The notes: a model not told the origin generated them from the letters alone. 24,568 bases of DNA from a virus (IMGVR_UViG_3300008216_000073:1-24568), one strand, 5' to 3'. Positions 1,349 through 21,007 are shown, numbered from the stretch's first letter. Numbers and translations: made by a program.

Positions 1349-2287
1349 ATGGCAAACGGTGACGGATTTTTTGGATCAGACTTCGGTTGGCCCGAAGCGA
1401 TAGGCCTTGGGATTGACTACTGGGCAGGTAAGGAAGGCGAGCGGTCAGGTAAAGATGTAGGCAAAGACTACGGTAAAGCGTACGCAGAATCTTATCCTAG
1501 GATAATGAGGGCGCATCGTGACGAGGTAGAAGCGATGATGCAAAAAGACCTCGATATGCAGAGGCAGTTCACCCCTCAAGAACAGCGACTAGCTTGGGAG
1601 ACTGCACAAGGTACAGAGGGTATTAAGGACTATAAAGAAGGCTTTATACCGGGTGCAGTTGACTACGCTGGCCTTAGTGGTGAGGTAGATCACGTATTGC
1701 GTAGGCTGGCTGCTGGTACGGATAAGAGCATCATGGATTTGCAAGGGCCGTATATGGCTCAGAATGTCATGGATCAGTTGGCTATAACTGATCAGCCGTG
1801 GATGCAAGCCAGAGAGACGGGGGTGCAGAAGTTACAGGAACTTTTGGGTAGCATAAACATGGGTGGCCTCTCCGGTGGTGAGCGTGCAGAGATAGAGCGT
1901 ATGAACGCCAGACGGAATTTGCAAAGAGGCCAAGCCGGGGGCGGTGGCAACCTCACAGCCATCGAGAACGCCATGCAGTTTGGCTCTGCCCTAGACCGCA
2001 AGAGGGCTGCGCTGGGTAATGCCTTGCAGACAGCAACTAACTTTATGGCTGGCTCTAGGTCAGGTTATGATCCTGTACAGGCTGTGTTAGGCAGAGGCAG
2101 TGGCACTAACCAGATAGCCGCAGGATTCCAAGGTGTGCAGCCGGTGCAGAACTACTCTAACCAGATGCCGGGTATGCCCTCTAATTTAATGCAAGGTGTA
2201 ACCGCAGGTGGTAACTTTTTCGACACACTAGCAAGAGGCGGAAAGTCTAGAACTGATTGGCTTAACCCCAACAGTCAAAGGAAGTAA
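1349..2287 (+). CDS. Probable internal virion/DNA-ejection protein (gp14 position)
   Basis: This 312-aa protein starts at an ATG with a clear Shine-Dalgarno sequence (AAGGAGA, 7 bases upstream). The N-terminus is Gly/Asp rich (MANGDGFFGSDFGW). A charged helical middle follows (about residues 50-180), then a low-complexity Gly/Gln/Asn-rich C-terminal third. A region around residues 175-235 (SGGERAEIERMNARRNLQRG, then ALDRKRAALGNALQ) is helical and looks like a structural protein. The gene is the first of three consecutive, increasingly large genes after the tail proteins, which is the layout of the T7 ejectosome genes 14, 15 and 16. No catalytic motif is seen. The function is inferred from position and composition. 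Confidence 0.5.
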   Translation: MANGDGFFGSDFGWPEAIGLGIDYWAGKEGERSGKDVGKDYGKAYAESYPRIMRAHRDEVEAMMQKDLDMQRQFTPQEQRLAWETAQGTEGIKDYKEGFIPGAVDYAGLSGEVDHVLRRLAAGTDKSIMDLQGPYMAQNVMDQLAITDQPWMQARETGVQKLQELLGSINMGGLSGGERAEIERMNARRNLQRGQAGGGGNLTAIENAMQFGSALDRKRAALGNALQTATNFMAGSRSGYDPVQAVLGRGSGTNQIAAGFQGVQPVQNYSNQMPGMPSNLMQGVTAGGNFFDTLARGGKSRTDWLNPNSQRK

Positions 2288-2292
2288 TTATT

Positions 2293-3495
2293 ATGGCAAG
2301 TCTTGGTGATATATTAAGCGGTGCGCTCGGTGGCGAATACAACATGGGCAGACCTCTCGACGAAGAGGAGCGTAGGTTAATAGAGGAGCTACGCGCTCAA
2401 GGTATGTACGTCCCACAGGAGCGTAAGGTGTCTCCATTTCGATATGGTGCAGGTACGGTAAGTCAGCGGAACTTGGCTGATGTCCGTGGTGCGATACAGC
2501 CTGAGCAAGAGCGTAAGACGAAAGAGCTTATGTGGCAGCGTGGCAGGGGTGCAAGAGATGCTACCGCCAAAGAACTTCGACAACAGCAAAGAAAGAGTGC
2601 TGCAAGTCAGCAAAGATCGGCTATCAAACGTGCTTCGTCACCCAGAGCTGTAGCTGAGCGTAAGCGCGTGGCGTTAGAGGAGTTTAATCGTAAGCAGGCT
2701 TTTGCTGACCAGCTCAAGCTGAAAAGAATCGCAGATGAACAGCGTAGACAGCATTTGAGCGGTTTACCAACGACTCCGCGAGAGCAAAGATATCTCAAAT
2801 CAACAGCCTTTGGTGAGTCTCCGATGATATCGAGGGAGGATTTTATTGCAGGTGCTAGGCCACAGATAACTGATCCGCAAAAGGCAGAGCTTTCTGTGTT
2901 ACAGCGTGAAGTAACCCCAGCTTTGTTACAAAGTGAGGCTTTGACACAAGCGGGGCAAAAGACAGCGACAGGTGCAATAGATGTAGCGACTAAAAGACGC
3001 GCTGATGATTTAGCCAAGCAAGTACACAATCTTTTACCTCCTGACTACGCCAAAATGATAGTTGATAAACAAATTGTTGGCTTAGAACTTGAAAATTTGT
3101 TGAATACACACCGTCTTGCCGTGCAGAGAGCTGTAGGTGAGGATTTGTTGAGTACAGAGGCTGATGCACACTTAGCTGCCAAGAGACAGGAGATCATGGC
3201 GATTGAGTCTCTTGAATCGTGGCTTGTTAATACACGGGAGGGGCAGGAATTTTTGCGTACAGGTGGGCCTCAGAGGTTTGATATGAGATTAAAGCTTGGG
3301 CAGTTGAAGGGCTATCTAATGCAGTCAGAAGCCCGAAAAGCGGCGGCTGGATCACGTAATCCACTTCTTAACGATCCGTTCTTCAATCAACCGGGAGGGT
3401 CAGGATTAACTCCCGCTAGAGTTGATTGGCCGCTGCCGTTTCCTCCAACATCAGGGGTCAGAACTAACGCACCACCGTCTAATCTGTTGCCATAA
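2293..3495 (+). CDS. Probable internal virion/DNA-ejection protein (gp15 position)
   Basis: This 400-aa protein is highly charged and Arg/Lys/Gln rich. Residues from about 60 to 160 are predicted to form long helices or coiled coil, and the tail is Pro/Gly rich (about 350-400). The start is supported by AGGAAG, 8 bases before the ATG. There is no signal peptide, clear membrane segment or enzyme motif. Its basic, helical character and its place between a 312-aa and a 2168-aa virion gene fit a capsid-internal protein that is ejected with DNA, like T7 gp15. This is an inference from layout; I do not recognise a specific family. Confidence 0.5.
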   Translation: MASLGDILSGALGGEYNMGRPLDEEERRLIEELRAQGMYVPQERKVSPFRYGAGTVSQRNLADVRGAIQPEQERKTKELMWQRGRGARDATAKELRQQQRKSAASQQRSAIKRASSPRAVAERKRVALEEFNRKQAFADQLKLKRIADEQRRQHLSGLPTTPREQRYLKSTAFGESPMISREDFIAGARPQITDPQKAELSVLQREVTPALLQSEALTQAGQKTATGAIDVATKRRADDLAKQVHNLLPPDYAKMIVDKQIVGLELENLLNTHRLAVQRAVGEDLLSTEADAHLAAKRQEIMAIESLESWLVNTREGQEFLRTGGPQRFDMRLKLGQLKGYLMQSEARKAAAGSRNPLLNDPFFNQPGGSGLTPARVDWPLPFPPTSGVRTNAPPSNLLP

Positions 3496-3498
3496 ACA

Positions 3499-6400
3499 AT
3501 GCCTCAGTTACACATAGTAGAAAGGCGACCTAGCTCACTTCTTGATCGTTACCCTGTGGGTTCTAATTTGCTTCTGGACGCTAGGCTGCGAGAGATGGGC
3601 TATGATCCCAACAGGTATGCTGCAATACCAGAAGATGATCTTGAGGAGTATTTGGGAGAATACTGGAGCGGCCCCGGTTCTGCTTGGAAAGCTGCCAAGG
3701 AACACGCAGGCGCAGGGGTAGGTGCAGCCGGTGCTATGATGACTGCTGGTGCTTACATGACAGGTACTGGCATCGGTTTCTGGCCCGGTCTAGCTCTTAT
3801 GGGTGGTGCTGGTCTTCTTGGTGCAGTCGGCGGCAGCTTGGGTCAGGACGTTGCTGAAGCTGCCGTTCTTACTGACAGGCAAGAGGCTGAGCTGGCAAGG
3901 GAACGTCAAGAGGCGTATATGGCAAACCCTAACTGGTCTTTTGCCGGTTCGATGGCTCCTGCGGGATTGGCTTTCAGGCCTTCACCAACACAGTTTGTCA
4001 AAGGTTTAAGCGGAGTAAAACAGGCTTTGACAGGTAAACTTGGCTGGGGCAAGGGGTTTACTAGAGCAGACGTTCCCACCTCAACTAGCTTTACAACTCG
4101 TTCTGGATTAGCAGGCCCGACACGGTCTAAACTTGGTTTTGAATCGCCGCTGGGAAGAGTCGCACCGGGAGAAAAGCAAGCATTAGCAGAGATGGCACTT
4201 GGCGCAACCTTTGATACAGCCATTGAGGGAGGCTTTCAGCTTGCACACGGAAAGTTCGACCCCAGCAGACTAGCTATCGCAGCGGGTATCGGCGCAACTC
4301 TGCAACGGCCCACGTTTAAGCCACCGGGATTGAAGGCACTCGTTGCGAAAGGTGAGCTAAGAGCTGAAGCCAAGGGTCGTAATCCTAACAAAATGTTCAA
4401 CCCTTGGCGTGAGCCAATACCTGCCTATGCTACTCTAAGGTCGCAGATAGGTGATGTGGGATACACCAGCTTATACAACAAGGGAGAAGTTTACGAGGGT
4501 GATATAGGTCGTAAGGTTGGTGTGATAGAGGACGCATTGACTCCCACAGATGCAGGCGTTGCCGCCACCATTGAGGCACACGTTACAAGGGGCGCGGGTT
4601 TTCTGGAGCCGTTTGAGCCGGGGCCAGCAGCTAGGTCTATGCAAAGGCCGGGTATTGGTGCTGTGCCTCTGACGGCAGATGAGGTTGCTGCTGCACAAAT
4701 GGTATCCCCGGAGAGGCACGTTGAAATTTACGGTGCGTCGGAAGCAATCAAGCAGAAAGCTAGGTTATCGCGTGAAGAGGGTGTACAGGAGTTGGAGGTT
4801 GCCCAGCAAAGGCTTGCTGTAACAAAGGACGAAGGTGTTACTTTTAGTGTCAGAGAAAAGAAGCAGGCACAGACTGCTGTAAACAAGGCGCGGAGAAAGA
4901 TAGACAAAGCAGACAAGGTGCTGGAAGCAGACGTTAGCAGGGCGCATGAGAGGGCCATAACAAGACTGTTCTCCAGCGCAGCCGAGCCTGTGAGGATTCT
5001 TGATCCTGTTACCGGCAAGCGAAGAACTATCAAGGTAGCCAAGGTTCCTAGGGAAGCCAGCGAACGTATCGTAGACCGTGATGGTGAGCCGTTGATAGAC
5101 AGGCTGGATATCTGGGAACCCACAGGTGTAGATCCCAAAACAGGCACAGTTATACAGAATCCTGTACGGGTCTTAGCCAACGGTTCCGTACAAAAAGCCG
5201 TTGTAAGGCCGGATGGTACTACTGGCTGGCAGTTCATTGACAAGATTACAGCCAGCAGACTACAGAAACAATTTCACGATCATGCCATTGGTATGCGGAA
5301 GCTTATCGGTGAGGCCAGAAGGAAGCTGGAAATAGAAAGGCGTGAGGTCACAGGTAAAACGGGAAGAAGGCTAAAACCACTAGACCCGGAGGTCATAGAC
5401 ATACTGAACAGGCTTGCGCTGATCCGGGGTTTCAACCTGACCGAAGCAATCAGAAGCATTGACCACCCAGAAGGCGGTCTAGCCGGTGGTTTCGCCACCT
5501 ATGATACACGAAGCGTAACTGTTGACCCTCGGCGTATGTCGAAGCACGCAATAGCCCACGAAGGTTTACACAACTGGTTGGATGATCTGCAATGGTCATC
5601 GAATCCCAGAGATCGAAAACTGCGTCAAGATTTTCTGGAGCTTTTTGGTGAGTTTGGGCCGCGCAGGGCTAGGTTGGATTTACCGGCTGAACCCCTATCA
5701 GCCGTTCACGCCAGAGAAGAAAGAGCCGTTGAGTTCTTGGGTAGGGCGATGACCGAGAAGGTTGCGAACCGTAATCAGAAGAAGTTTATGAAGCTGTTGG
5801 AAGAAGCCAAGATACGCTGGAAAGACCGGTTCGGTATCCCGCTGACAGATAAGCAGCTAAAGAACTATATGCTTCTCAAGTACGAGCATGATCTGCCGTT
5901 CATGTTCAATGACGATATGATTGCAGGTTTTACGGCGCATCTTTACGGGGCAAGGGCTACGCCGGAGTTAAAGCAGAAGGTGCTGGAAGATGTAAGGGCC
6001 GGGAGACCCATCAGAAGGGACGATGCTTATTACGAGAAGCGTATCGGGACTGATCCTTGGAAAGGCTTGAAGTTTCAAGAAGCCAAGAAACGCTTCAACT
6101 CTAGGGGTGAAGAGGTGGTTTCCGAGGAAGAGAGTCTTAGGTTGATGAAGGGTGTGAAGCGTCAACTGGGTATCGAGGACGAGCCGGGAGCCGATCCGCA
6201 ACGGTTTGCCACCGACAAGGGCATGATAAACAAGATTTTGCAGGACACCGAGGGGCTTGGCAGACACAAGTTTCAGAAGGTGGACGCAGCGTATGAAAGA
6301 GAGCTTGCTCGTCCTATTCCTGATATGGATAAAGTCAAGCTTCTGGTAAACGAGGCTGCAAGGCTTGGCGGGTTTTTCCCACGGATGGGTTTTCATGGTA

Positions 6401-9400
6401 CGACAGACATGATGGGCGGCACTCGGTTTGATGTCTTAGACCCGGAAAAAATCGGTCAGGGTATAGGCATTTCTGAAGAGATAGGCTTGGCACACGTTTC
6501 GCTAGACCCCAAGGTAGCAAACCAAGCCTCTGGTTATCCGTCAAAATTGTCTGGCAAATCACTTGCCGCCAGAAATGTAACAGCCGAAAGTGATTTATTT
6601 AACGTCTATTTCAAGGCTGAAAGGCCGCTTGTTTTTAATGAGGATGCTGGTGCTTGGACTATACCACAGCTTGTGAATCTTTTGCGTAAGTCAAATATGG
6701 TTGCACTCGCTGACGATCTCGAAAGAACCCTGCTTGATCCCAGTGTTGACGTACGAATTAGGAGGTCTAAAGATGCTTCAGAAGGCGGAGACGTTCGTGA
6801 ATTTCTCGAACTGCGGCAGCAGCAGGCAGCAGAAATGCCCCCGGTGGCTAGGGTTCTTGAAACAACTGATCCCGCTTACGCAATGTCAAAGACCGAGCGC
6901 GTGGATGCCGTAAGGTCTATCCTAAACGAGCATGGTTATGATTCTATAAAGTACACAAACCAAAACGAGATATCCAGGCTAAAGACTGATTGGGCAAACG
7001 ACTCGTACATAGTTTTTGAGGCCAACCAGATTAAGTCTGCCGATCCTGTTACACGTGATATAGACTCAGACAGGGTTATACCTTTGGGCGAACGCTTCGG
7101 GCCGAAGCCTAGCATGAGATACCAAAAAGGTGCAGTCGGTGAGCGTACTCTTTCCGATGATGAGATCGCACTCTTTGCTTCCAGCCGTGACCGCGCCAAA
7201 CACATGGCGGAAACCTTCGACAAGTTCGTCACGGACATAGGGGCGTTCGATCCCGAACGGCGTATACTTTCGCCCTTAGAGGGCAAAGAGTACACGATGC
7301 TTGTTGATCCCCGCTGGTGGCTTCAGAAACTTCAATACTCCATAGCAGAGACAGATCAACTGCTGGTGAGGCCGTTCAAGGGGCTGTTAAATTCCGAGAT
7401 CACGGACGCCACCAAGAAGCAGGCTTTGTATATTAGGGACGCGCACAACAGGTTGGAGATGGTGGAGAAGCGTTACATTGGCAGGTTTGTAGAACCTCTG
7501 ATTATGGAGCTGCGGACTTTGGGATTAAACAAAGCAGATGTAACGCTGCTTGGACGCTACAGAACCTTGCGTCGTATGGTCAGAGGACGAGAAAGACGAG
7601 ACTTCGATGATACCCCGGAGTTCCGCAAGGTAAGGGACGAACTCGACAAGCTTGAACCACAAATCAAGGGCAAGCTTCACGCAGCCAACGAGACACTCGA
7701 CAGGTTCTTCACGGAGACACGCTTGGAACACGCAGCCAACGGGCCGATGGTCTGGAGAAAGAATCGCTGGGTAAAGGTCAGCAACGACCCGGATCATGTG
7801 GATAAGACCTATGATCCGTATATGCTGAGTCGTGATGCCTCAACGATCCTTCGTAAAAAGTCCCACACGAAAGAAGGCAAAGACTTACAGGACAAGATCA
7901 TCAAGCATTGGAAGGAAGAGTCTAATCTTAGTGAAAACGAGTTGCGTGACACACTCTTGGAGTACGTCGCCGTCATCAACAACAAGGATAGTTACAAGAC
8001 AACCGGAGGTGAAACGAAAAGTCTTGTTGGTGCGTCGAAATTCCAGGCGTTAAGGAAGACGGAGGGTTTGAGTATGCCGGTAGACTTGATAGACCCTGAC
8101 CCGTTTATACGAGCGCAGCGGTATGCCGGACGTTTCGCCAAGGACATGGCGTGGTATACCCAGATCGAGAGTGATAATATCGTACGGGCAATACGTGATC
8201 TTCCTGACCAGACGGGTATGTATACACACCGCAAGGTGGGTGACAGAGAGCCAACGACACCTACGCTGAAGGAACACTTCGGTGATGATGTGGATGTCGG
8301 CTACGGTGATCGCGCTCAAGAGACTTTTAACAATCTAGATGAGGTTCATGCGGGTTTTCACGATGACATGGATTTGTTTGTCCTGAGAGCCAACAGGATG
8401 ATAACCGCAAACTGGCTTGGTTTGTACTCTGGTGCGCGTGACTTTGCCACCGCTTTCGAGAAGGCTTCCCATTACATGAGGCTACAGGACTATCCCCTGA
8501 TGCTGAAGGCAGTAACGCATTTTGGGGATGCGTGGAAGCAAAGTCACAGGGCCGGTGCGAATCGTGACAAGTTTTCTTCTATAGAGTTTGCAATGGGCAG
8601 CGTGGACGAGGTGGCAGATTCCTTTTCTACCGTGGCTGATTTCTCGCAGAAGTGGTCAGGTCGTGAGCTGTTCGAGAAAGGCACACGGGCTATACAGTTT
8701 AGCCTAGGGAAGCTGCTGATGCGTAGCTACCTTAACAGCGCATCCAAAGATCCGCACGTGCAGCGTATACTTACAACGATGGGGCGGTTTGCAGATGTTG
8801 ATACCGTCAGGCTTCGGAAGAATCCCACGGAAATTACGGAATCCGATATCCAAAAACTTGCGACAGCTTGGGTAGAGATCAATCAAGGCACGTATGGCGT
8901 TCGCGGCGTACCGTCCACAATGATACGCGGCAAAGGTAGCTACGTCTTGTCTTTATCCAGATGGTCTGTGGAGAAATTCAACCGCTACCAAAAGGACGTA
9001 ATCCTGCCCATCCTCGACAAGAAAACCTACGGCAAAAGAGACTTTAGACCGCTCATCAAGGCTACGCTTGGCGCGGCTGTTATGGGTACTGCGCTCAATG
9101 AGATTGGCAAGATGATGAACGGGAAAGAAAGTTACGAGCCATCACTTGAGGAAGTTCTGGAGTCACCGTCTGGTATGACAGATTTCATTTATCATGCCAT
9201 GCACTTGGCTAACCTGAGTGGTTACTTTGGCATACTGTCTGCACTGGGTAATGATCTTGTTAGGATGTACACCGGTAAGAGTGGTGCGGCTGACTTTTCT
9301 CTTGTGACTTTTCCGGCTTTGGAGGGGCTTGTTTTCGACAAGGGTTTTCTAATGTCAGCATTCTCCTACCTGAGATCAGGAAACATAGGTGACCCGTCTA

Positions 9401-10005
9401 CCTCACTACGCTTTCTGGAAGACGTTATGACCAACCTTAACCAGACGCTGCGTATTGCCCGTAATCAAGCCTTGGCCCACACAGAGGTTGCACAGACGCT
9501 GGACGAGGCCTTGAGTACAGGTGTGTTTAGGGGTAGGGCTTCTGAGTTTGAGCGTGCAAAGATGGATCGTGACCTCAAGGTCTTTAAGCGTCTCTATCGT
9601 GGTGACTACGGCTCACGGTTTATGGCGAACCTTGACCGTTATGAAAAGACACCTGCGTCTGCTTTCCGCAACTCTGAGACCTTGGAGCAGTTACAGGATA
9701 CTGTAAAGCCGTTCATGGAGAGTGCTTGGAAACGCTCGCAGACCAAGAGTGGCGTAGACCCAAGCAAGTTCAAGCGTCTTCTACAAGAAGGATACGTCAA
9801 GCACAAGAAACTTCATCCCAACGTGACTGATGCTTTCTCACTAAGGGAATCACGCAAGTTCGCAGACTTCATCGCTCGAACAAAGAGCAAGGAAGCTGTG
9901 CGTGATATCGTGCTGCGTGAACAGAGGGACGAAGCTTTGTCTCAGGTTCGCAAGCGGCTAGTTCAGGAGGGTCTTAGAGATTTTCTAGCCACCAAAGGTT
10001 ACTAA
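3499..10005 (+). CDS. Giant multidomain virion protein with HExxH and ADP-ribosyltransferase-like domains
   Basis: At 2168 aa this is the largest protein in the window and sits in the T7 gp16 position, so it is probably packaged in the capsid and ejected into the host. Residues about 72-118 form a Gly/Ala-rich hydrophobic stretch that could insert in a membrane. Residues about 420-510 are a charged coiled coil. HEGLHNW at 687-693 matches the HExxH zinc metallopeptidase signature. Residues about 960-1195 resemble the ADP-ribosyltransferase domains of phage polyvalent proteins: FHGTT at 965-969 supplies the NAD-binding His, and NQIKSA at 1176-1181 matches their typical end motif. The C-terminal half (about 1250-2168) is helical, with hydrophobic patches near 1855-1880 and 1900-1990, as in other large injected proteins. 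No lytic transglycosylase motif was recognised. The domain calls come from motifs, not from alignment. Confidence 0.75.
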   Translation: MPQLHIVERRPSSLLDRYPVGSNLLLDARLREMGYDPNRYAAIPEDDLEEYLGEYWSGPGSAWKAAKEHAGAGVGAAGAMMTAGAYMTGTGIGFWPGLALMGGAGLLGAVGGSLGQDVAEAAVLTDRQEAELARERQEAYMANPNWSFAGSMAPAGLAFRPSPTQFVKGLSGVKQALTGKLGWGKGFTRADVPTSTSFTTRSGLAGPTRSKLGFESPLGRVAPGEKQALAEMALGATFDTAIEGGFQLAHGKFDPSRLAIAAGIGATLQRPTFKPPGLKALVAKGELRAEAKGRNPNKMFNPWREPIPAYATLRSQIGDVGYTSLYNKGEVYEGDIGRKVGVIEDALTPTDAGVAATIEAHVTRGAGFLEPFEPGPAARSMQRPGIGAVPLTADEVAAAQMVSPERHVEIYGASEAIKQKARLSREEGVQELEVAQQRLAVTKDEGVTFSVREKKQAQTAVNKARRKIDKADKVLEADVSRAHERAITRLFSSAAEPVRILDPVTGKRRTIKVAKVPREASERIVDRDGEPLIDRLDIWEPTGVDPKTGTVIQNPVRVLANGSVQKAVVRPDGTTGWQFIDKITASRLQKQFHDHAIGMRKLIGEARRKLEIERREVTGKTGRRLKPLDPEVIDILNRLALIRGFNLTEAIRSIDHPEGGLAGGFATYDTRSVTVDPRRMSKHAIAHEGLHNWLDDLQWSSNPRDRKLRQDFLELFGEFGPRRARLDLPAEPLSAVHAREERAVEFLGRAMTEKVANRNQKKFMKLLEEAKIRWKDRFGIPLTDKQLKNYMLLKYEHDLPFMFNDDMIAGFTAHLYGARATPELKQKVLEDVRAGRPIRRDDAYYEKRIGTDPWKGLKFQEAKKRFNSRGEEVVSEEESLRLMKGVKRQLGIEDEPGADPQRFATDKGMINKILQDTEGLGRHKFQKVDAAYERELARPIPDMDKVKLLVNEAARLGGFFPRMGFHGTTDMMGGTRFDVLDPEKIGQGIGISEEIGLAHVSLDPKVANQASGYPSKLSGKSLAARNVTAESDLFNVYFKAERPLVFNEDAGAWTIPQLVNLLRKSNMVALADDLERTLLDPSVDVRIRRSKDASEGGDVREFLELRQQQAAEMPPVARVLETTDPAYAMSKTERVDAVRSILNEHGYDSIKYTNQNEISRLKTDWANDSYIVFEANQIKSADPVTRDIDSDRVIPLGERFGPKPSMRYQKGAVGERTLSDDEIALFASSRDRAKHMAETFDKFVTDIGAFDPERRILSPLEGKEYTMLVDPRWWLQKLQYSIAETDQLLVRPFKGLLNSEITDATKKQALYIRDAHNRLEMVEKRYIGRFVEPLIMELRTLGLNKADVTLLGRYRTLRRMVRGRERRDFDDTPEFRKVRDELDKLEPQIKGKLHAANETLDRFFTETRLEHAANGPMVWRKNRWVKVSNDPDHVDKTYDPYMLSRDASTILRKKSHTKEGKDLQDKIIKHWKEESNLSENELRDTLLEYVAVINNKDSYKTTGGETKSLVGASKFQALRKTEGLSMPVDLIDPDPFIRAQRYAGRFAKDMAWYTQIESDNIVRAIRDLPDQTGMYTHRKVGDREPTTPTLKEHFGDDVDVGYGDRAQETFNNLDEVHAGFHDDMDLFVLRANRMITANWLGLYSGARDFATAFEKASHYMRLQDYPLMLKAVTHFGDAWKQSHRAGANRDKFSSIEFAMGSVDEVADSFSTVADFSQKWSGRELFEKGTRAIQFSLGKLLMRSYLNSASKDPHVQRILTTMGRFADVDTVRLRKNPTEITESDIQKLATAWVEINQGTYGVRGVPSTMIRGKGSYVLSLSRWSVEKFNRYQKDVILPILDKKTYGKRDFRPLIKATLGAAVMGTALNEIGKMMNGKESYEPSLEEVLESPSGMTDFIYHAMHLANLSGYFGILSALGNDLVRMYTGKSGAADFSLVTFPALEGLVFDKGFLMSAFSYLRSGNIGDPSTSLRFLEDVMTNLNQTLRIARNQALAHTEVAQTLDEALSTGVFRGRASEFERAKMDRDLKVFKRLYRGDYGSRFMANLDRYEKTPASAFRNSETLEQLQDTVKPFMESAWKRSQTKSGVDPSKFKRLLQEGYVKHKKLHPNVTDAFSLRESRKFADFIARTKSKEAVRDIVLREQRDEALSQVRKRLVQEGLRDFLATKGY

Positions 10006-10546: not shown

Positions 10547-11524
10547 GTGGCTGTTGGAAAAAAGGGTGGGTTCACGCTTATTGAACTGTTAGTAGTGATT
10601 GCAATAATTGCGATCCTAGCCGCCCTACTGTTACCATCACTGGCTTCTGCCAAGCGCACCGGCTGGCAGGCAGCTTGCCTCAACAACCACAAGCAGTTGA
10701 ATCTAGCTGTTAAAGAGTTCGCTGACGACCATAGCGACAGGTTCCCGTATGCTAGCGCGTGGCACAATGAACCGTCAGCGCGTTGGTCATGGGTGGCAGA
10801 CTCGATGAGCGGCGTAAGCGAGTGGTCTACTTGGGCGCAGACTGATCGTGCGCTGTTCTGGTCGCCTCTGAAAGACTACGCAGGGATGAGGATATTCCGC
10901 TGTCCCGGTGATAAATCAACAGTCAAGTGGACAGGCCGCTGGGAGGCTGTTGGTGAGGGTAGCGGCACAAACGTCCAGCAGCAGCTACGTCCGCGCAGTT
11001 ACTCGATGAATATCTTCGTGGGGGGTTGGTCAGGCTGGCCGTTCATGTACGATAACCAGTACAAGGTGCATCACACCTATGCAGATGTGGGGTCTGCCTC
11101 CCAGTTATTCACGTTTATCGAGATGCCAGCAGAGTCTATCAACGCGGGAAACTTCCGCGTTGTGCCGTTGAAGACGGGACAGAAAAGCGTCTTCAGCATG
11201 GATTGGCCCGGTGTATACCACAACAACGGCAGCGTGATTTCGTTCGTCGATGGCCATGTGGAGTTCCGGCGATGGTTAGAGGAAGACACAAAGCACATAC
11301 CGGGAGGCGCAGGAACACCAACTACACGATCTACAATAGTCGTCTCCGATGACAACCGCGACCTCGCTTGGCTACGAGACAGAGCCATTGTGCCTGACCC
11401 GAACAGTCACGATTGGTATAGTTTAATGGGTGGTATCGGCAGATACAACCGAGAGTGGAATGCAACAGAGATCAACGGCAAGCGGTATGATAGTTGGGGC
11501 TGGTACTGGAATGGGAGCTGGTAG
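10547..11524 (+). CDS. Type II secretion-type pseudopilin with H-X9-DG motif
   Basis: This 325-aa protein begins with a textbook prepilin N-terminus: KKGG followed by FTLIELLVVIAIIAIL. The prepilin peptidase would cut after Gly8, and Glu5 of the mature protein is present. A single hydrophobic helix (residues 9-30) precedes the periplasmic or surface domain. His followed by exactly nine residues and then Asp-Gly (YHNNGSVISFVDGHVE) is the H-X9-DG signature of the large DUF1559-like pilin families of Planctomycetota, Verrucomicrobiota and Lentisphaerota. The CLNNHKQL and FADDHSDRFPYA segments also fit verrucomicrobial members. The start is GTG with no Shine-Dalgarno sequence. The gene ends the virion block, directly against the convergent replication block. 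Host-derived acquisition is inferred. Its role (receptor mimicry, superinfection exclusion, modified secretion or virion decoration) is unknown. Confidence 0.88.
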   Translation: MAVGKKGGFTLIELLVVIAIIAILAALLLPSLASAKRTGWQAACLNNHKQLNLAVKEFADDHSDRFPYASAWHNEPSARWSWVADSMSGVSEWSTWAQTDRALFWSPLKDYAGMRIFRCPGDKSTVKWTGRWEAVGEGSGTNVQQQLRPRSYSMNIFVGGWSGWPFMYDNQYKVHHTYADVGSASQLFTFIEMPAESINAGNFRVVPLKTGQKSVFSMDWPGVYHNNGSVISFVDGHVEFRRWLEEDTKHIPGGAGTPTTRSTIVVSDDNRDLAWLRDRAIVPDPNSHDWYSLMGGIGRYNREWNATEINGKRYDSWGWYWNGSW

Positions 11525-15595: not shown

Positions 15596-15851
15596 CGGTT
15601 GGAAACTCCAAATCCATGAGTTTCTCCGTGGCGATCTCTTCGGACTCCTTGTTAAAGTCCTCGTTCTTCTTGAAGTGATCGTCAGCGTAGGTTATAACCA
15701 AGGCCGCAGCGTCTTGGAAGCCGGACTTATACCCGACGACCATTACCTTAGCCATTAGATCCTTTAGCCTATGCGCCAATGCTTCACAGTCCTGCGTCTT
15801 CTTGGGAGCCAAACTGTCCAACTCTTGTTTTATTTGTTCAAAGACCGTCAT
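15585..15851 (-). CDS. Small acidic helical protein upstream of the polymerase
   Basis: This 88-aa protein is predicted to be mostly helical, with an acidic C-terminal part (FKKNEDFNKESEEIATEKLM). I recognise no family. The stop overlaps the polymerase start by 11 bases, and its own start overlaps the stop of the ribbon-helix-helix gene by 14 bases, so it belongs to a tight operon with both. A polymerase accessory role is possible only by proximity. Confidence 0.6.
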   Translation of the reverse strand: MTVFEQIKQELDSLAPKKTQDCEALAHRLKDLMAKVMVVGYKSGFQDAAALVITYADDHFKKNEDFNKESEEIATEKLMDLEFPTDAS

Positions 15852-16020
15852 CTTCGTGTCGTAATGCCTTGGCCAAAAGGCGTGGTGTATATTGATTGAG
15901 CCGCATACGCTTGTCTCTGGCCTTTGATTTTAGCCTGCGGTGCAAAGACTCCGGTATCATTAGAGAACAATACCTTCTGACCCTGCTATCTGATCTGGGT
16001 TTAGTTTTGCTTTTTTTCAT
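15838..16020 (-). CDS. Ribbon-helix-helix (Arc/CopG-like) DNA-binding protein
   Basis: This 60-aa basic protein has a positively charged N-terminal arm (MKKSKTKPRSDSRVRR). A short strand follows (YCSLMIPE), then two helices (SLHRRLKSKARDKR and LNQYTPRLLAKAL), which is the ribbon-helix-helix layout of Arc, CopG and similar repressors that bind DNA as dimers. It is the first gene after structured element B (16031-16114), whose palindromes would be natural operator candidates, so autoregulation or control of the polymerase operon is plausible. No Shine-Dalgarno sequence precedes the ATG; a TATAGA box ends 8 bases upstream. The fold call comes from the pattern of hydrophobic residues and size. 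Confidence 0.65.
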   Translation of the reverse strand: MKKSKTKPRSDSRVRRYCSLMIPESLHRRLKSKARDKRMRLNQYTPRLLAKALRHEDDGL

Positions 16021-16030
16021 GTTTATTTTC

Positions 16031-16114
16031 TATAAGTGAGACTTGCGTTTGTTTCAGAGGGAAAATAAATTTAACCCGCCGTAGGGTCTCCCTACGTACC
16101 ATACCGCAAGTCTC
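16031..16114 (-). ncRNA. Structured element B (candidate RNA or structured operator)
   Basis: This intergenic element lies between the SSB-like gene and the ribbon-helix-helix gene. The outer stem pairs 16105-16114 with 16038-16047, a perfect 10-bp inverted repeat. Inside is a 7-bp hairpin at 16080-16096 with sequence CGTAGGG-AGA-CCCTACG on the - strand. It shares these features with element A (20492-20579): ATGGT between the outer stem and the hairpin, the GGGAGACCC hairpin head, TGAAACA just before the closing strand, and CTTATA exactly one base after the outer stem. The outer stem sequence differs in A but is again paired, so the pairing itself seems to be conserved. TGAAA and TATAGA are also spaced like -35 and -10 boxes (17 bp), so a promoter-operator role is an alternative. 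Confidence 0.6.
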
Positions 16115-16122
16115 GTTAGAGA

Positions 16123-16605
16123 CTAGAACCCAGACATATCGTGGTCTTCAGCAGCTTCTAGTCTGCGTTCCACGTTGTAGCGATAACTCGCTAACGGTTG
16201 CCCAGTTATGGGGTCGATCATGGGATTACCCGTGATCTCGTCCATTCTAGACTCTGACTTTGTGTAGAGTACAGCCTTAAATGCTTTACCCTTGAGACCC
16301 TCTGCAATCTCGTCGTAATCCTCCAACTCGAACTCGTCGGGCAAGTTGAAGATTTTGTGATACTCCTTTAGACTCCGTGATGGAATCAGCGGGTAGTCCC
16401 TGACTTGAACACCGCTGACCTCAACAAAGCCGCTAGGCCCGTTGACTTCTGCGGGTTCTACAACCTCAGTTACAATGGCAACCATATCGTTGCCCTTGCT
16501 GCTGACCTTGCGCTCTGCCTCGACAATGCGAAGCGTGTATGTACCGTTCGGGAGGTAAGGCCTGCCCGAACTTTCCGTAATATCTTTTAGACTGATCTTA
16601 GCCAT
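16123..16605 (-). CDS. DUF669-like single-stranded DNA-binding protein
   Basis: This 160-aa protein starts with a beta-rich domain. Its pattern (GTYTLRIVEAERKVSSKGN, then MVAIVTEVVEP) is that of DUF669-type phage proteins, which have an OB-like fold and bind ssDNA in replication and recombination. The C-terminus is acidic and ends in Phe (EAAEDHDMSGF), the arrangement used by SSB and T7 gp2.5 to contact partner proteins. It lies two genes downstream of the Sak4-like recombinase, a frequent pairing. The start ATG is preceded by an AT-rich 75-base gap (16606-16680) that contains GTGTA-AGA-TACAC, a 5-bp hairpin, but no clear promoter. Element B follows directly after its stop. Confidence 0.65.
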   Translation of the reverse strand: MAKISLKDITESSGRPYLPNGTYTLRIVEAERKVSSKGNDMVAIVTEVVEPAEVNGPSGFVEVSGVQVRDYPLIPSRSLKEYHKIFNLPDEFELEDYDEIAEGLKGKAFKAVLYTKSESRMDEITGNPMIDPITGQPLASYRYNVERRLEAAEDHDMSGF

Positions 16606-16680
16606 TAGTTATTATGTATTGTAGTTTATGTTTATCGTAGTGTATCTTACACGTATCCCCTACACTCATAGGGAAATTCA

Positions 16681-17049
16681 TTACAGTATAAAATTACTAT
16701 TCGGCCCACTAACGTAGGGAGATTTCTTGTAGGTTTCTAGCTCTTCACCAACGCTCATGGGTACATACCACTGTAGTCCGTAACCGTAGTCTCCGTCTGA
16801 ACCGTTTTGTAAAATTGAGTTCATACTCAAGCGTAAGTAAACATTCTTGTGCAAATCTGCAAAGACAAAGTTCTCAACAGCATTCTGCTTTGCGTAGTCG
16901 AGAAGTTTTTTGTCAAAGCTAAACGATTTGTTCTGCCACAAGACTGATTTAGCAAAAGGAAACTCACGTATGATGTTGTTCTTTATGTGTTTTCCTATGA
17001 ACCTATACGAACCGTTAAACTTTATGTAGAGTGCTTTGTTCTTTGTCAT
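16681..17049 (-). CDS. Hypothetical protein, Lys/Asn/aromatic-rich
   Basis: This is a protein of 122 aa if it starts at the ATG at 17049, which overlaps the upstream stop in an ATGA junction. An in-frame ATG at 17067 would add six residues but lies deeper in the neighbour. The protein is rich in Lys, Asn, Phe and Tyr and looks like a small mixed alpha/beta domain (ALYIKFNGSYRFIGK, then VENFVFADLHKNVYLRLS). Its codons look more AT-rich than those of its neighbours. No known family or catalytic motif is seen. It lies between the SSB-like gene and a small basic protein in the recombination cluster. Confidence 0.6.
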   Translation of the reverse strand: MTKNKALYIKFNGSYRFIGKHIKNNIIREFPFAKSVLWQNKSFSFDKKLLDYAKQNAVENFVFADLHKNVYLRLSMNSILQNGSDGDYGYGLQWYVPMSVGEELETYKKSPYVSGPNSNFIL

Positions 17050-17270
17050 TTCCAAAACTGCCACCATCTAGATAGAGGCAGACAGTCCTCGGTGTTATTA
17101 GCTGCCCGTTCTCTGGCTTCCTTTAGCTGCCCGTCCGTGAATAGATATGGGACAGGTCTGTGTTTGCCCTCAAGGTACGTAAAGATGTACGACCTGTTGG
17201 CTGCTCTGTGTTTGTGGTCGTTTGATACCACAAACAACCGCCCTAATGTTACCCTAGGTTTCTTAGGCAT
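17046..17270 (-). CDS. Small basic phage protein, unknown function
   Basis: This 74-aa protein has a beta hairpin-like start (RVTLGRLFVVSNDHKH), a strand ending in PYLFTDGQLKEARERAANN, and a Trp-rich end (RWWQFWK). The 'FTD..L..A..RA..N.ED' stretch resembles a type of small protein that I associate with phage replication regions, with no known function. It overlaps the Sak4-like gene by 8 bases and its downstream neighbour by 4 bases, so it is part of the operon. Confidence 0.6.
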   Translation of the reverse strand: MPKKPRVTLGRLFVVSNDHKHRAANRSYIFTYLEGKHRPVPYLFTDGQLKEARERAANNTEDCLPLSRWWQFWK

Positions 17271-17919
17271 AGTATTCCTCTGCTTTCTCCAGCACCGTCA
17301 CGATGTCATTGGGGATGAGTAGCTCATCGAACATACCCATTGGGGTCTTGGCTGACGTAACACCATCCGTGTTAGTCTGGAAGAAGTATTCCATTTCCTC
17401 GGTCTTCTCATTCTTGCGAACCTCAGTGAACAAGACCATGAGGAACTCCTTCTCTATCGCGCCTTCGTGGACTTTACCCTGCACCTTGACCCTGCGATGC
17501 GAGGTCTCGCCGCCTGTAATCTGCGGAATCTTCACGATGTCGTCTACGGCGGTGAAAATAATTGTAGCCTTATCGTTCTTGATGGAGTCTAACATATTGC
17601 GGATAGTCCTGTTGTAGAACGACCAGATATCGTAGCCCTTGAACGAGTTGGTAGCCAGCGTGTGAACCTGCTCCACGTACTTGGTGAACGATTCGACCAC
17701 CACAACCTCGCAGTTGTCCTCCTTTAGAACCTTGTCCAGTTCCCTAGGGAAAGCGTTGGCGTTCTCCACGGGAATGATGTTGAACCTACTAGCGTTACGG
17801 AAAGGGAATCCCTTGCGCTCCAAGTCTAGGATGTAGGTTGTCTTCGGGTCTAGGTTACGCAACGCCGTACTCTTGCCGCTGCCACTATGACCCACAATTG
17901 CGATCAATGGTTTATACAT
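17263..17919 (-). CDS. Sak4-like RecA-type ATPase (single-strand annealing recombinase)
   Basis: This is a 218-aa RecA-fold ATPase. GHSGSGKST (residues 10-18) is the Walker A motif, EVVVVESF is the Walker B strand, and TIIFTAVDD resembles a sensor strand. The late segment with NTDGVTSAKTPMGMF matches the end of Sak4/AAA_24 phage proteins, where a Thr/Lys-rich loop precedes 'P.g.f'. Sak4 proteins promote annealing of single strands together with a phage SSB, and both an SSB-like protein and an exonuclease are nearby. The start ATG overlaps the upstream stop by 8 bases. The family call is based on motifs and context; other AAA_24 roles cannot be excluded. Confidence 0.7.
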   Translation of the reverse strand: MYKPLIAIVGHSGSGKSTALRNLDPKTTYILDLERKGFPFRNASRFNIIPVENANAFPRELDKVLKEDNCEVVVVESFTKYVEQVHTLATNSFKGYDIWSFYNRTIRNMLDSIKNDKATIIFTAVDDIVKIPQITGGETSHRRVKVQGKVHEGAIEKEFLMVLFTEVRKNEKTEEMEYFFQTNTDGVTSAKTPMGMFDELLIPNDIVTVLEKAEEYYA

Positions 17920-18301
17920 TTTCTTTTTCTTCCTCTGTCTCTGCTCCTGTTGTTATTTCTATCTTAGTCTCTGGTTCAATGACACCGTAGAAGGTGTCAA
18001 ATTCTAGCTGTTCTTCCTCCGGCCATTGCTCCCGCAGAAGCATAAGGCCTATGAGTCCGTAGTTCGCAATGTCCTTGAAGGTATCCTCCAACGGTTCGTT
18101 CTGCGGATCTTCCTCCTTGTCCATTAGCAGATTTGCGAGCCGCTCCACCTTATCGTAGAGGCGCACGCTTAGACCACGAACACCAAACCTAGTGATGTTC
18201 TTCGGCCCGTAGTCTTTCTGCTTCTTGTCCAGCAGACTAACGCAGTCGGCGGCTACGAATAGCGCACGCTTGCCTGCCACGGTATCCAGTTTTATTTTCA
18301 T
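17912..18301 (-). CDS. DUF1599/Nmad1-like protein (MazG-like all-alpha fold)
   Basis: This is a 129-aa helical protein. The stretch KKQKDYGPKN (residues 26-35), FGVRGLSVRLYDKVERLANL (39-58) and FKDIANYGLIGLMLL (75-89) matches DUF1599, also called nucleotide-modification-associated domain 1. The fold is related to MazG/dUTPase-like NTP pyrophosphohydrolases. The family is often found in phages near nucleotide metabolism genes, so handling of a dNTP is a reasonable inference; no base-modifying enzyme is visible in this window. The C-terminus is Glu rich. It overlaps the next gene by 8 bases and the previous by 4 (ATGA). Confidence 0.7.
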   Translation of the reverse strand: MKIKLDTVAGKRALFVAADCVSLLDKKQKDYGPKNITRFGVRGLSVRLYDKVERLANLLMDKEEDPQNEPLEDTFKDIANYGLIGLMLLREQWPEEEQLEFDTFYGVIEPETKIEITTGAETEEEKENV

Positions 18302-18579
18302 TTGGTTACTAGCCTCCCTACCATCACGGACATATTCTGCAAAGACTTGTCCAATGCGGTTAGCTTACTGCCCAACATATCTGCCGCCGCAAGTATCGCT
18401 GATGTGTGACTTACACAGTCGGCGGTCAGTATGCCTGTCATTTCGTTATCCTGTAGCGTAGCTTCAAGAGTCTTGTTGAGGGACTCCATAGCTGCCGTGT
18501 AGCGTAGCATGGTAAAGTTATCCATGCCGTCCAAGTAGGCGTCGTGCCTAGCCGTTAATGTTTTCTGTGGTACTTCCAT
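18298..18579 (-). CDS. Small helical protein, unknown function
   Basis: This 93-aa, mostly helical protein has several Met residues and a leucine-rich C-terminal helix (LGSKLTALDKSLQNMSVMVGRL). No family is recognised. Its start lies inside the previous gene (32-base overlap), and its stop overlaps the DUF1599-like start in ATGA. Translational coupling along the operon supports that it is expressed. Confidence 0.55.
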   Translation of the reverse strand: MEVPQKTLTARHDAYLDGMDNFTMLRYTAAMESLNKTLEATLQDNEMTGILTADCVSHTSAILAAADMLGSKLTALDKSLQNMSVMVGRLVTK

Positions 18580-18736
18580 GTTCTTTCTCCAATTCTTCTA
18601 GTCTTTCTTCCAACTCATGTACCCTACCCCATGCGAAGGCCAGCGAGCTATACGATGTCTCATACGCTGCCTCCAACTTACGAGTCAGGGTTACTACCTG
18701 ATCTACTGCGCTTATGTAATAGTCTTGTTGCATCAT
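18548..18736 (-). CDS. Small coiled-coil protein, unknown function
   Basis: This is a 62-aa protein. Residues about 10-55 are predicted as one long helix, ending in the heptad-like VHELEERLEELEKEH, so a coiled-coil dimer is likely. No family is known to me. It starts with an ATG that overlaps the stop of the exonuclease gene by 4 bases, and its end overlaps the next gene by 32 bases. Confidence 0.55.
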   Translation of the reverse strand: MMQQDYYISAVDQVVTLTRKLEAAYETSYSSLAFAWGRVHELEERLEELEKEHGSTTENING

Positions 18737-19659
18737 AGTTGAAACTGTAGTGGGTCGTAGACTTTGTTGACGTAGTCCATGTTGACGATGGACTCCCTGT
18801 CACGGCTTGAGTTCGCCGTGCAGAGGGGAGAGAACGAGCAGAGTCCAAACCTAGTCTCGCAGCAGGCAAAGTTACTGAGAAAGATATCCTCGGCCTCGGA
18901 CTCTGCTGACCACTTCATGCGAATCTTCATGGTACTCATTCTCAAGATAAGCCTGTTGACCATGTCGTCGATGTAGGCCTTGAACTTATCCAGCATATCC
19001 TTGCTGAACTCGTAGATTTCGCTGCGCTCGAACTTGTTCTTGTTAGACCGGCCAAGGAACAGACCGTTAATCATGCAGCCTACGTTTTCTTCGGGAAAGA
19101 TTGTACGCCAGATGAGGTTGTAGAACATTAGCTGGGGCGAGACTTTGTAGGATGCGAAGTATGCGGCGGGGCTGTAGGCTGCTGTGGATTTGTGGTCTAC
19201 GATGACAGGCCTACCGAAGTAGGTTCCGACAAAGTCTATAGTGCCGCAGAAGATTATGTCCAGCTCCGGTGTTTGCTTGTAGGGGTAGGCAAAGCGCATC
19301 TCCACCAATGAGTCAGGGTCTTTGCGAACCTCAAGCCCCGTGTCCTGTTTGAAGTATTGATTGAGCAGGTTGACCAGATGGGCTAGGTCACGGAAGTCCT
19401 TGTCGGGTACGAGGACATCAACATAGTGGTCTATCGCCGCGTTGACGGCTTTCTCTTCGTCACCGTCAGAGTAGTACGACTCCAAGGCTTTGTGTACTGC
19501 CGTGCCGTACTCCATCTTATGATTGGTGTTCCGCTTGCGTAGACCACGGCATAGCATATACCATAGCCTACGCTCGCAGGCTGATTCTTTTATAAGGGAC
19601 GCATCTATCTTTAGGATAAGCTTGCCCTCTTCGGTTTTTTCTAGGTTAAGTAATTCCAT
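18733..19659 (-). CDS. RecB/Cas4-like PD-(D/E)XK exonuclease with Fe-S cysteines
   Basis: This is a 308-aa nuclease. The PDDEXK_1 motifs are in order: GTAVHKALE (His56), Glu120, GTIDFVG (Asp142), VIVDHKST (Asp155, Lys157) and SPQLMFY (Gln176). Cys28 near the N-terminus and the C-terminal Cys267, Cys274 and Cys280 (CETRFGLCSFSPLC) fit the four-cysteine iron-sulphur site of Cas4 and AddB-type nucleases. Together with the Sak4-like and SSB-like proteins it would form a phage recombination set in which it resects DNA ends. It could also degrade host DNA. It overlaps its neighbours by 14 and 4 bases. There is no sign of truncation. Confidence 0.8.
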   Translation of the reverse strand: MELLNLEKTEEGKLILKIDASLIKESACERRLWYMLCRGLRKRNTNHKMEYGTAVHKALESYYSDGDEEKAVNAAIDHYVDVLVPDKDFRDLAHLVNLLNQYFKQDTGLEVRKDPDSLVEMRFAYPYKQTPELDIIFCGTIDFVGTYFGRPVIVDHKSTAAYSPAAYFASYKVSPQLMFYNLIWRTIFPEENVGCMINGLFLGRSNKNKFERSEIYEFSKDMLDKFKAYIDDMVNRLILRMSTMKIRMKWSAESEAEDIFLSNFACCETRFGLCSFSPLCTANSSRDRESIVNMDYVNKVYDPLQFQL

Positions 19660-19858
19660 AGGTTTTCTTTAGTAGTTCCATTTCGGCTTGCAACGAGGGC
19701 TTCTCTTTAGGCACACGCTTCTTTCGTGTCCTCGGCTTGGCTAACTCTACCCTCGGTTCGGTTAGCTTTAGATAACTGTCGAAGTGTTGGAGTAATTCCT
19801 CATCCGACATGGACTCTAGTTTCTCTACCGTGCAGTCTAGTAGTTCCTCAATGGTCAT
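19646..19858 (-). CDS. Small protein with acidic and basic halves
   Basis: This 70-aa protein is acidic in its first half (MTIEELLDCTVEKLESMSDE) and then has a basic stretch (KPRTRKKRVPKEKP). The last helix overlaps the exonuclease start by 14 bases. It has no recognised family. The basic patch could bind nucleic acid, and the pairing with the exonuclease suggests an accessory role, but both points are guesses. Confidence 0.5.
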   Translation of the reverse strand: MTIEELLDCTVEKLESMSDEELLQHFDSYLKLTEPRVELAKPRTRKKRVPKEKPSLQAEMELLKKTYGIT

Positions 19859-19934
19859 GTAGATCTATGATAATGAGGACTATAAATAGCAGGGTAAAAA
19901 ATATAGAGGTTGCGGCTATGACTACCAAGGGCAT
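19848..19934 (-). CDS. 28-aa single-span membrane microprotein
   Basis: A short ORF starts at an ATG that overlaps the upstream stop as TAATG (19932-19936), a classic coupling junction, and ends 11 bases inside the next gene. The peptide has a hydrophobic core IAATSIFFTLLFIVLIII and an end DLHDH, so it is predicted to be one membrane helix with a short charged tail. Such microproteins can be holin-like, lysis-timing or superinfection-exclusion proteins; nothing here points to one. It fills a gap that would otherwise have no gene. Confidence 0.45.
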   Translation of the reverse strand: MPLVVIAATSIFFTLLFIVLIIIDLHDH

Positions 19935-20485
19935 TATCTTACGACACTAAGCGTGTCCTTGACCGTGTCGAACTCGAAGTCTACAAGTTTCTGTTGTTCT
20001 TCCAGCCACTTGATATCTTCGTGCTTTATAATTAGGTTCTCACGCCGGAAGGTATCCATTTCCTTGGCGTCCTGTAACCAAGCGAGAAACTCCGCCTTCC
20101 AGACTTTAGAGTCTGCGAAGTCGTACTTCATTTCCTTGGCTTTGATCTGATTACGTATGGTGTCCTTGAAGTAAATCAAGACACCGGTAGCAGTCTTGCG
20201 GAGCGCAACTTGAGTACGTAACTCCGCATAGATTGGGCCATACTCCGTAGAGTTGTCAACCAAAAACTTAAAGCCGTCCGATAACTTTACATGGAGGGTG
20301 TTGACTTTATATCCTGTTTCCTCTGCGGTAACTAGGATATCCGTGTTCCCATCAAGTAGCTTATCTATAATCGGCTTTACTTTATGTGCGTTGGTTGGGG
20401 TATATGTTGATCTGCTTATGGAACTCCTTGATCGTAGCTTACGAAGGAGAGCCGAGTGATCCTGTAATGTTGTGTCTTTTTCCAT
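19934..20485 (-). CDS. Hypothetical protein with possible N-terminal helix-turn-helix
   Basis: This is a 183-aa protein. The first 30 residues are Ser/Arg rich and possibly disordered. Residues about 35-70 (KPIIDKLLDG, then TAEETGYKVNTLHVKLSDGF) have the spacing of a helix-turn-helix that could contact DNA. The rest is charged and helical (KVWKAEFLAWLQDAKEMDTF). No family is recognised. It follows directly after structured element A; a TATAAT box ends 4 bases before its ATG and no Shine-Dalgarno sequence is visible, the same arrangement as at the ribbon-helix-helix gene after element B. Confidence 0.6.
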   Translation of the reverse strand: MEKDTTLQDHSALLRKLRSRSSISRSTYTPTNAHKVKPIIDKLLDGNTDILVTAEETGYKVNTLHVKLSDGFKFLVDNSTEYGPIYAELRTQVALRKTATGVLIYFKDTIRNQIKAKEMKYDFADSKVWKAEFLAWLQDAKEMDTFRRENLIIKHEDIKWLEEQQKLVDFEFDTVKDTLSVVR

Positions 20486-20491
20486 GGAAAT

Positions 20492-20579
20492 TATAAGAGG
20501 GTAGCGCAGTGTTTCACCAAGTTGAACGCTAGTAACTACTCTGTTCGTGGGTCTCCCACGACACCATGCTACGCTACCC
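20492..20579 (-). ncRNA. Structured element A (candidate RNA or structured operator)
   Basis: This element lies between the 139-aa and 183-aa genes. The outer 8-bp stem pairs 20572-20579 with 20499-20506 (GGGTAGCG/CGCTACCC). The inner hairpin at 20545-20561 (CGTGGG-AGA-CCCACG on the - strand, extended by a T-A pair) has the same GGGAGACCC head as element B. A third imperfect hairpin occupies about 20510-20532. Shared with B at equal positions are ATGGT (20563-20567), TGAAACA (20510-20516) and CTTATA one base after the outer stem (20492-20497). It resembles a multibranched RNA but does not fit a tRNA. GTGAAA-17 bp-TATAAT could alternatively be a sigma-70-type promoter. Confidence 0.6.
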
Positions 20580-20587
20580 CGATTTGT

Positions 20588-21007
20588 TTAGGCCGATTCG
20601 GCCATTAGTTCCTCCATACGAGTAAGCAGTTCTTTGCCCAAAGGAATATCCCCAGATGCGAAAGCCAGCTTAGCTTTCTTGAACAGCTTGCCGGGAGTCT
20701 CCCCGCCGCCGCTCTCTGGAGTCCACTTGTCGGCATCCTCCTTGGTGTAGATTACCAAGTCAGGGTGCTTCGCCAGTAACTCGGCCTTCAGTTCTTCAGT
20801 CGTCTGGCCGTTAGGCTTCAACGAGTTCTTTACCGTAGACCGGATTCGTGCGCTGATCTGCTGATTCAGCAGGCCAAGCGTTTTCTCTTCTCCATACCTA
20901 AAGACTACGTCAGCCGTAGCTTTGAACTCTGGTACGTTAAACTTGAAGTCTTTCCAATCACCAGACTGGAAATGCTCCACCTCGTAGTTTGTATCTATCG
21001 TTTGCAT
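20588..21007 (-). CDS. Hypothetical protein, first gene after the sigma-54 promoter
   Basis: This is a 139-aa protein. The N-terminal 45 residues look beta-rich (VEHFQSGDWKDFKFNVPEF), followed by helices and a Gly-rich linker (ESGGGETPGK) leading to a C-terminal helix pair that ends ELLTRMEELMAESA. I do not recognise a family. It is the first gene of the leftward replication operon, about 80 bases downstream of the predicted transcription start, so it would be expressed first and most strongly from the sigma-54 promoter. There is no good Shine-Dalgarno sequence (AGATAAAAAGCATA before the ATG). Confidence 0.6.
   Translation of the reverse strand: MQTIDTNYEVEHFQSGDWKDFKFNVPEFKATADVVFRYGEEKTLGLLNQQISARIRSTVKNSLKPNGQTTEELKAELLAKHPDLVIYTKEDADKWTPESGGGETPGKLFKKAKLAFASGDIPLGKELLTRMEELMAESA

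Follow-up and report, generated by a model that had tools for sequence, protein, structure and literature searches.

Two structured elements in a phage replication operon

The window, which is the whole 24.6-kb stretch of viral DNA analysed in this study, carries two elements (E1 and E2) that share short sequence blocks and are closed by outer stems of different sequence, raising the question of what kind of element they are and what they do for the phage. An earlier note, which gave no strand, had placed them at 16031-16114 and 20492-20579; both were found, on the minus strand. Screening of the whole window with a covariance model gave two matches, at 16115-16036(-) (50.5 bits) and 20581-20496(-) (61.2 bits), and no third copy was detected in the 24.6 kb by either the model or a pattern search. 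Both elements lie on the minus strand in the phage replication operon, which includes genes for an SSB-like protein, a Sak4-like annealing protein, an exonuclease, a family A DNA polymerase, and a primase/helicase. The elements, their parts, and the adjacent genes are as follows.

15838..16020, minus strand: gene downstream of E1, 60 aa, no PHROG match
16036..16115, minus strand: E1, whole three-way-junction RNA (R1 match 50.5 bits, E 5.8e-12; fold z -4.1)
16038..16047, minus strand: E1 P1 3' strand, CGCAAGTCTC (from sequence, model match, and orthologues)
16050..16056, minus strand: E1 J3/1, UGAAACA (model match)
16059..16077, minus strand: E1 P3, weak, GGG...CCC (from sequence and fold; P3 varies across the family)
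16080..16096, minus strand: E1 P2 hairpin, CGTAGG-GAGAC-CCTACG (model match; compensated in orthologue L015 as CGCAGA-GAGAT-TCTGCG)
16097..16102, minus strand: E1 J1/2, AUGGUA, consensus AUGGUG (model match; junction coupling in the family)
16105..16114, minus strand: E1 P1 5' strand, GAGACTTGCG, partner of 16047-16038 (A-U to G-C compensated in orthologue L015)
16123..16605, minus strand: gene upstream of E1, SSB-like, phrog_378 (PHROG E 1.2e-5), stop codon 8 nt before P1
19934..20485, minus strand: gene downstream of E2, 183 aa, no PHROG match
20496..20581, minus strand: E2, whole three-way-junction RNA (R1 match 61.2 bits, E 6.3e-15; fold z -3.4)
20499..20509, minus strand: E2 P1 3' strand, CTGCGCTACCC (mostly CTACGCTATC or CTACGCTACC in orthologues)
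20510..20516, minus strand: E2 J3/1, UGAAACA (model match)
20545..20561, minus strand: E2 P2 hairpin, TCGTGG-GAGAC-CCACGA (model match)
20562..20567, minus strand: E2 J1/2, AUGGUG (model match; junction coupling in the family)
20569..20579, minus strand: E2 P1 5' strand, GGGTAGCGTAG, partner of 20509-20499
20588..21007, minus strand: gene upstream of E2, 139 aa, no PHROG match, stop codon 8 nt before P1

From 5' to 3', E1 consists of P1 (GAGACTTGCG), GU, AUGGUA, P2, the weak P3, UGAAACA, AA, and P1' (CGCAAGTCTC), and E2 of P1 (GGGTAGCGTAG), C, AUGGUG, P2, AC, the P3 region, UGAAACA, and P1' (CTGCGCTACCC). As RNA, E1 (z -4.1) and E2 (z -3.4) are both more stably folded than shuffled sequence. 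The shared ATGGT, GGGAGACCC hairpin head, and TGAAACA blocks described in the earlier note were present in both elements, while its fourth block, CTTATA, has to be dropped, as the copy near E1 reads CTTACA in E1 orthologues and the block is absent from E2 orthologues. The outer stems are indeed paired and different in sequence; P1 of E1 has the 10 perfect base pairs proposed, while P1 of E2 has 11 including one G-U, not eight. The genes downstream of E1 and E2 have little or no Shine-Dalgarno sequence, as was noted; in the family as a whole, a downstream gene is not constant. As well, a promoter-like sequence, GTGAAA-16-TATAAT (window 20517-20490(-)), overlaps the 3' side of E2 and is not conserved in orthologues; if used, it would give a nearly leaderless mRNA.

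Elsewhere in the window, the product of a gene at 10547-11524(+), where the two transcription directions meet, carries a pilin-type methylation motif at its N terminus (PF07963, E 1e-7); in style, its sequence resembles those of PVC-group bacteria, which may be a clue to the host. The 2168-aa product of an ORF at 3499-10005(+) is probably a virion protein, and by eye only, part of it resembles an ADP-ribosyltransferase.

Family size and covariation

Since two copies in one window could agree by chance, viral contigs in IMG/VR were searched more widely, which led to many true members. An exact pattern for the shared blocks was found in 45 contigs, comprising five coding coincidences and about 40 true members, in which the P1 arms are complementary and yet unrelated in sequence between phages. 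When the loop was relaxed, more than 119 contigs were found, with about 90 true members judged by eye. The search patterns themselves partly impose invariance at some positions. The family, of about 75 nt, has well over 100 distinct members in IMG/VR, spread over many unrelated phages.

Among 43 diverse members, 92.6% of helix cells were paired, compared with 58.1% when the letters of the 3' strand were shuffled and at most 50.9% when the partners were slid, and changes on both sides occurred in 18 of 21 pairs. The covariation score was 0.887, against 0.221 for shuffled and at most 0.19 for slid partners; a lack of covariation in homologues, which the earlier note had named as evidence against structure, is thus contradicted. 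A covariance model built from these 43 members gave 93 matches in 0.79 Mb of loci and was almost noise-free.

The folded strand could also be recognized. G-U pairs outnumbered A-C mismatches by 57 to 6 in P1 and by 15 to 0 in P2, and therefore one strand, the sense strand, is the one that folds. By a simple gene caller, about 73 of 84 elements read in the same direction as the gene closest upstream, and in the operon runs of 19 records the elements are in sense orientation. Selection thus acts on the folded strand, which is the sense of the surrounding transcripts, and E1 and E2 belong to a class of structured RNA that is centred on phages and not yet catalogued.

The conserved core

The architecture comprises a closing stem P1, a P2 hairpin fixed at 6 bp with a GAGAN loop, a J2/3 of about 2 nt (AC), a variable P3, and junction strands that are usually AUGGUG and UGAAACA. 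Because the first scans had a fixed core, the junctions were surveyed with one P2 sequence fixed and the junctions left free, and AUGGUG was kept by 100 of 121 members. The junctions of the remaining members change in a coupled manner, GUGGUG occurring with UGAAUCA and GUGGAG with UGUAUCA; further coupled variants are AUAGAG with GUGAACA or UUGAACA, AUAGCG with UUCAACA, and AUAGGG with UGCAACA. Mutual information within the junction peaks at positions 19/74 (0.64 bits), position 17 is also coupled with 74 and 73, and 15/76 switches from A-A to G-U. The covariation of the junction strands indicates that the two strands interact, in a junction that is largely non-canonical and consists of AUGGUG/UGAAACA or its coupled variants.

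Position 31 of the GAGAN loop can be any base. For one P2 stem type, no contig was found with the first loop base altered and one contig with the third (G29) altered, and the GG/CC pairs beneath the loop vary to AG/CU or AC/GU with compensation. Moreover, a subfamily consisting of L280, L285, L291, L323, and relatives has AUAGAG/GUGAACA junctions and an extra conserved stretch near GUCAACAAUCAACC after P3, and is located about 74 nt after a gene of 466-498 aa, in long, apparently non-coding regions.

Genomic context and distribution

The neighbours of the elements are unrelated, both upstream (SSB, RusA, replication initiators, endolysins, terminases, RNA ligase) and downstream (helicases, primases, portals, kinases). 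An upstream stop codon often lies 0-20 nt before P1, which is commoner than any constant downstream gene, and in 12 cases the upstream gene runs in sense and the gene on the other side converges on the element. In some cases an intrinsic terminator lies only a few nt downstream, and in others a tRNA or a promoter-like sequence follows; elements also occur at domain boundaries. Sense tRNAs were found within 36 nt of six elements, two related phages being counted among them, compared with 0.18 expected. Five of these six tRNAs are tRNA-Arg, and the six elements concerned (L049, L077, L088, L115, L288, and L319) sit mostly on the 5' side of the tRNA. Cis-regulation of the downstream gene by the RNA, as suggested in the earlier note, finds no support, given the unrelated neighbours and the many elements that end an operon in front of a terminator or convergent gene, adjoin tRNAs, or lie within ORFs; a processing signal is possible.

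Most records carry one copy, about one fifth carry two, and one 230-kb record carries four. In L162, a tandem pair 84 nt apart with differing P1 arms (3821-3984(-)) lies upstream of a helicase gene, as does the single copy in the related phages L056, L068, and L095. In G041, where two operons converge, a copy closes each operon at its 3' end, and 46 or 20 genes precede it while 2 or 0 follow; in other records the position is mixed or distal. With fast filters, copies were detected in chromosomes of 3 of 388 Verrucomicrobiota genomes and in 1 of 100 genomes of the phylum of a Thermotoga MAG. Among cultured phages, a likely, divergent copy was found only in Microcystis phage Mae-JY24, with a BLAST match also in Mwe-Yong1318-1, and further BLAST matches looked like chance.

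A shared phage partner protein was also considered and appears unlikely. No phage protein common to all element-bearing genomes was detected by BLASTP, which misses distant relatives, and the only widely shared proteins among 19 genomes were a generic terminase (9/19) and DNA polymerase (7/19). A host partner or an autonomous RNA is therefore suggested.

Elements inside reading frames and empty sites

In L071, the element lies within the reading frame of the terminase large subunit (phrog_38, E 1e-44). Compared with the related L113, the 108 upstream codons contain 55 synonymous and no non-synonymous differences, and the 26 element codons contain no synonymous difference. P2 pairing reaches 100% across 14 element-bearing terminases, both partners have changed in four of six pairs, and the P2 swaps alter the protein (SGEIPEQ, PEEISGQ, SEEISEQ, SDERSEQ). 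Since RNA pairing is kept despite this amino-acid cost, the fold must be worth much to the phage. Selection on RNA structure, which the earlier note had proposed from two copies, is strongly supported by the 43-member covariation, the terminase codons, and the P2 pairing. Other ORFs with the element are Mu-type portal genes, in which it follows just after the portal domain (PF06074), a transposase gene, and the gene of an unidentified protein (L064, L109). The element is thus compatible with being translated, and in a translated ORF its folding would be transient.

A comparison of 55 related terminases showed that the insert of about 20-25 residues is missing from those with roughly 68-77% identity. 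Of 44 such records searched whole, 12 contained the element and five of these 12 a second copy; four second copies could be read clearly, each located downstream of a gene for a protein of about 209-244 aa that by eye resembles a cell-wall hydrolase, and just before a terminator. The other 32 records, several of 35-40 kb and many of them fragments, showed no copy anywhere. The copies thus seem to be gained and lost jointly, which would fit a function that a phage uses or not, or a mobile element. Absence from close relatives indicates that phages can do without the element in the long run, and a mobile or selfish element is therefore conceivable. The element is independent of the neighbouring gene, occurs in one or two copies per genome, and can be gained or lost whole.

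The terminase gene of L380 (within 646-2583) contains a decayed copy, in which an SSLPDETSSPA remnant is kept and the P2 hairpin and junctions are lost; no intact copy was found in L380. In L418, the terminase large-subunit match (2001-4778) covers 2778 nt for 649 aa and exceeds that of relatives by about 0.8 kb; the extra length is possibly an inserted element or intron besides the RNA element.

Comparison with known RNAs

At gathering thresholds, Rfam 15 gave no match in the window, and ARAGORN detected no tRNA or tmRNA there, in agreement with the earlier note, which had recognized neither a known riboswitch nor a tRNA. A search of 10 short member loci against Rfam at E up to 0.5 returned only tRNAs and one subthreshold match antisense to a tRNA. 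With lax settings, ncS16 (RF02866) matched on the opposite strand with 17 bits, compared with a gathering score of 48 bits, most likely by chance. No paper describing the motif was found within the literature searched. The element is treated here as a new class of RNA.

The hammerhead ribozyme has a core of CUGAUGA...GAAA...UH, with three helices, conserved junction strands, and variable arms. The phage element resembles it in the last three respects; however, the hammerhead core is absent, the element has AUGGUG...AC...UGAAACA and a GAGAN loop instead, and no Rfam match was obtained. The HK022 put RNA is an antitermination RNA that modifies host RNA polymerase without a phage protein and is located in operon leaders. 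It shares with the element the one or two copies per phage and the lack of a phage protein partner, whereas the elements here follow stop codons or occur within ORFs or at the ends of operons. Integron attC sites are folded DNA with conserved boxes, used with an integrase. They too have a conserved structure, variable arms, and a position just after stop codons, but neither conserved boxes nor an integrase was seen with the phage element. The diverse neighbour genes also differ from the constant regulon of a riboswitch.

Theta ribozymes of gut phages are HDV-like, gene-agnostic, and often abut tRNAs; they form nested double pseudoknots and have their cleavage site at tRNA 3' ends (PMC10879173). 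The element described here is likewise a small structured phage RNA that is gene-agnostic and tRNA-adjoining. Unlike theta ribozymes, it forms a three-way junction, lies mostly 5' of the tRNA, and also occurs in ORFs. Its J2/3 of about 2 nt leaves no room for the P1-type partner strand of the HDV/theta topology, and no HDV family of Rfam matched.

Possible roles

As a whole, the observations are best explained by a structured phage RNA that engages a conserved host component, a tentative reading of sequence data to which we give a chance just short of even. The junction and the GAGA loop would form a single compact tertiary surface, and the partner that it engages would be conserved from host to host, for example RNA polymerase, the ribosome, a ribonuclease, or a different RNA-binding protein. 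Either at its site of transcription or after processing, each copy would then act to the benefit of the phage. A host partner is proposed because no phage gene was found to be shared by BLASTP.

Less probable, at about one chance in five, is a candidate small self-cleaving ribozyme, whose three-way junction would cut phage transcripts at gene ends or next to tRNAs. Such activity would suit a conserved core with freely varying arms, a gene-agnostic distribution in phages, and positions 0-20 nt after stop codons or adjoining tRNAs, as in theta ribozymes (PMC10879173). However, no Rfam ribozyme matched, and several members lie in long ORFs that remain translatable and belong to presumably essential genes (terminase large subunit, Mu-type portal), whose messages constitutive cleavage would destroy, which weakens self-cleavage.

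It is rather unlikely that the element is a 3'-end or intercistronic stability element, in which a compact fold blocks exonucleases and protects the upstream message. The proximity to the upstream stop codon, the 12 elements before a convergent gene, the copies directly before terminators, and the two converging operons of G041 would be expected of such an element, but copies within ORFs or far upstream in operons would shield fragments only, and each genome has just one or two.

By analogy with put, the nascent RNA might, with no phage protein involved, modify the host's RNA polymerase. The low copy number (one or two per genome), the sense orientation, and the lack of a shared phage partner are consistent with this, although many copies lie far from a promoter, at the 3' end of an operon, or right in front of a terminator. 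The promoter-proximal position of put is not seen in G041, where both copies are distal, and elsewhere the position is mixed or distal; put-like antitermination is accordingly improbable. A single-stranded DNA structure, such as a primase or primosome assembly site, would account for the many replication genes among the neighbours, the tolerance of location, and the low copy number. It is nevertheless a very improbable alternative to RNA, given that the strand closely tracks transcription and that tRNAs are enriched alongside.

Intrinsic termination by P1 was also considered and rejected, a U-run after P1 being present in some relatives (such as L015) and absent in most members. Stop-codon readthrough, prompted by an in-frame linker at E2, showed no frame bias, with open frames in 23, 20, and 23 of 49 cases for frames 0, +1, and +2. 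Promoter and operator DNA common to the two genes, for which the GTGAAA-16-TATAAT over the 3' side of E2 could speak and which the earlier note had kept as its DNA-level alternative for all blocks, is next to inconceivable, since TATAAT and CTTATA are not conserved in orthologues and P1 covaries without sequence conservation, which refutes it as an account of all blocks. Of all these readings, the promoter/operator one and a general readthrough function alone are clearly rejected.

This RNA class combines very strong covariation with a common occurrence in uncultivated phages, is absent from Rfam 15, and is rare in the bacterial chromosomes searched. Conceivably, with a likelihood somewhat below even, its widespread members, carried in transcripts and even within terminase, act directly on host machinery that is conserved, be it RNA polymerase, the ribosome, a ribonuclease, or a defence effector, or else they form a new ribozyme class that is silenced during translation. 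Close relatives with and without the element provide natural controls.
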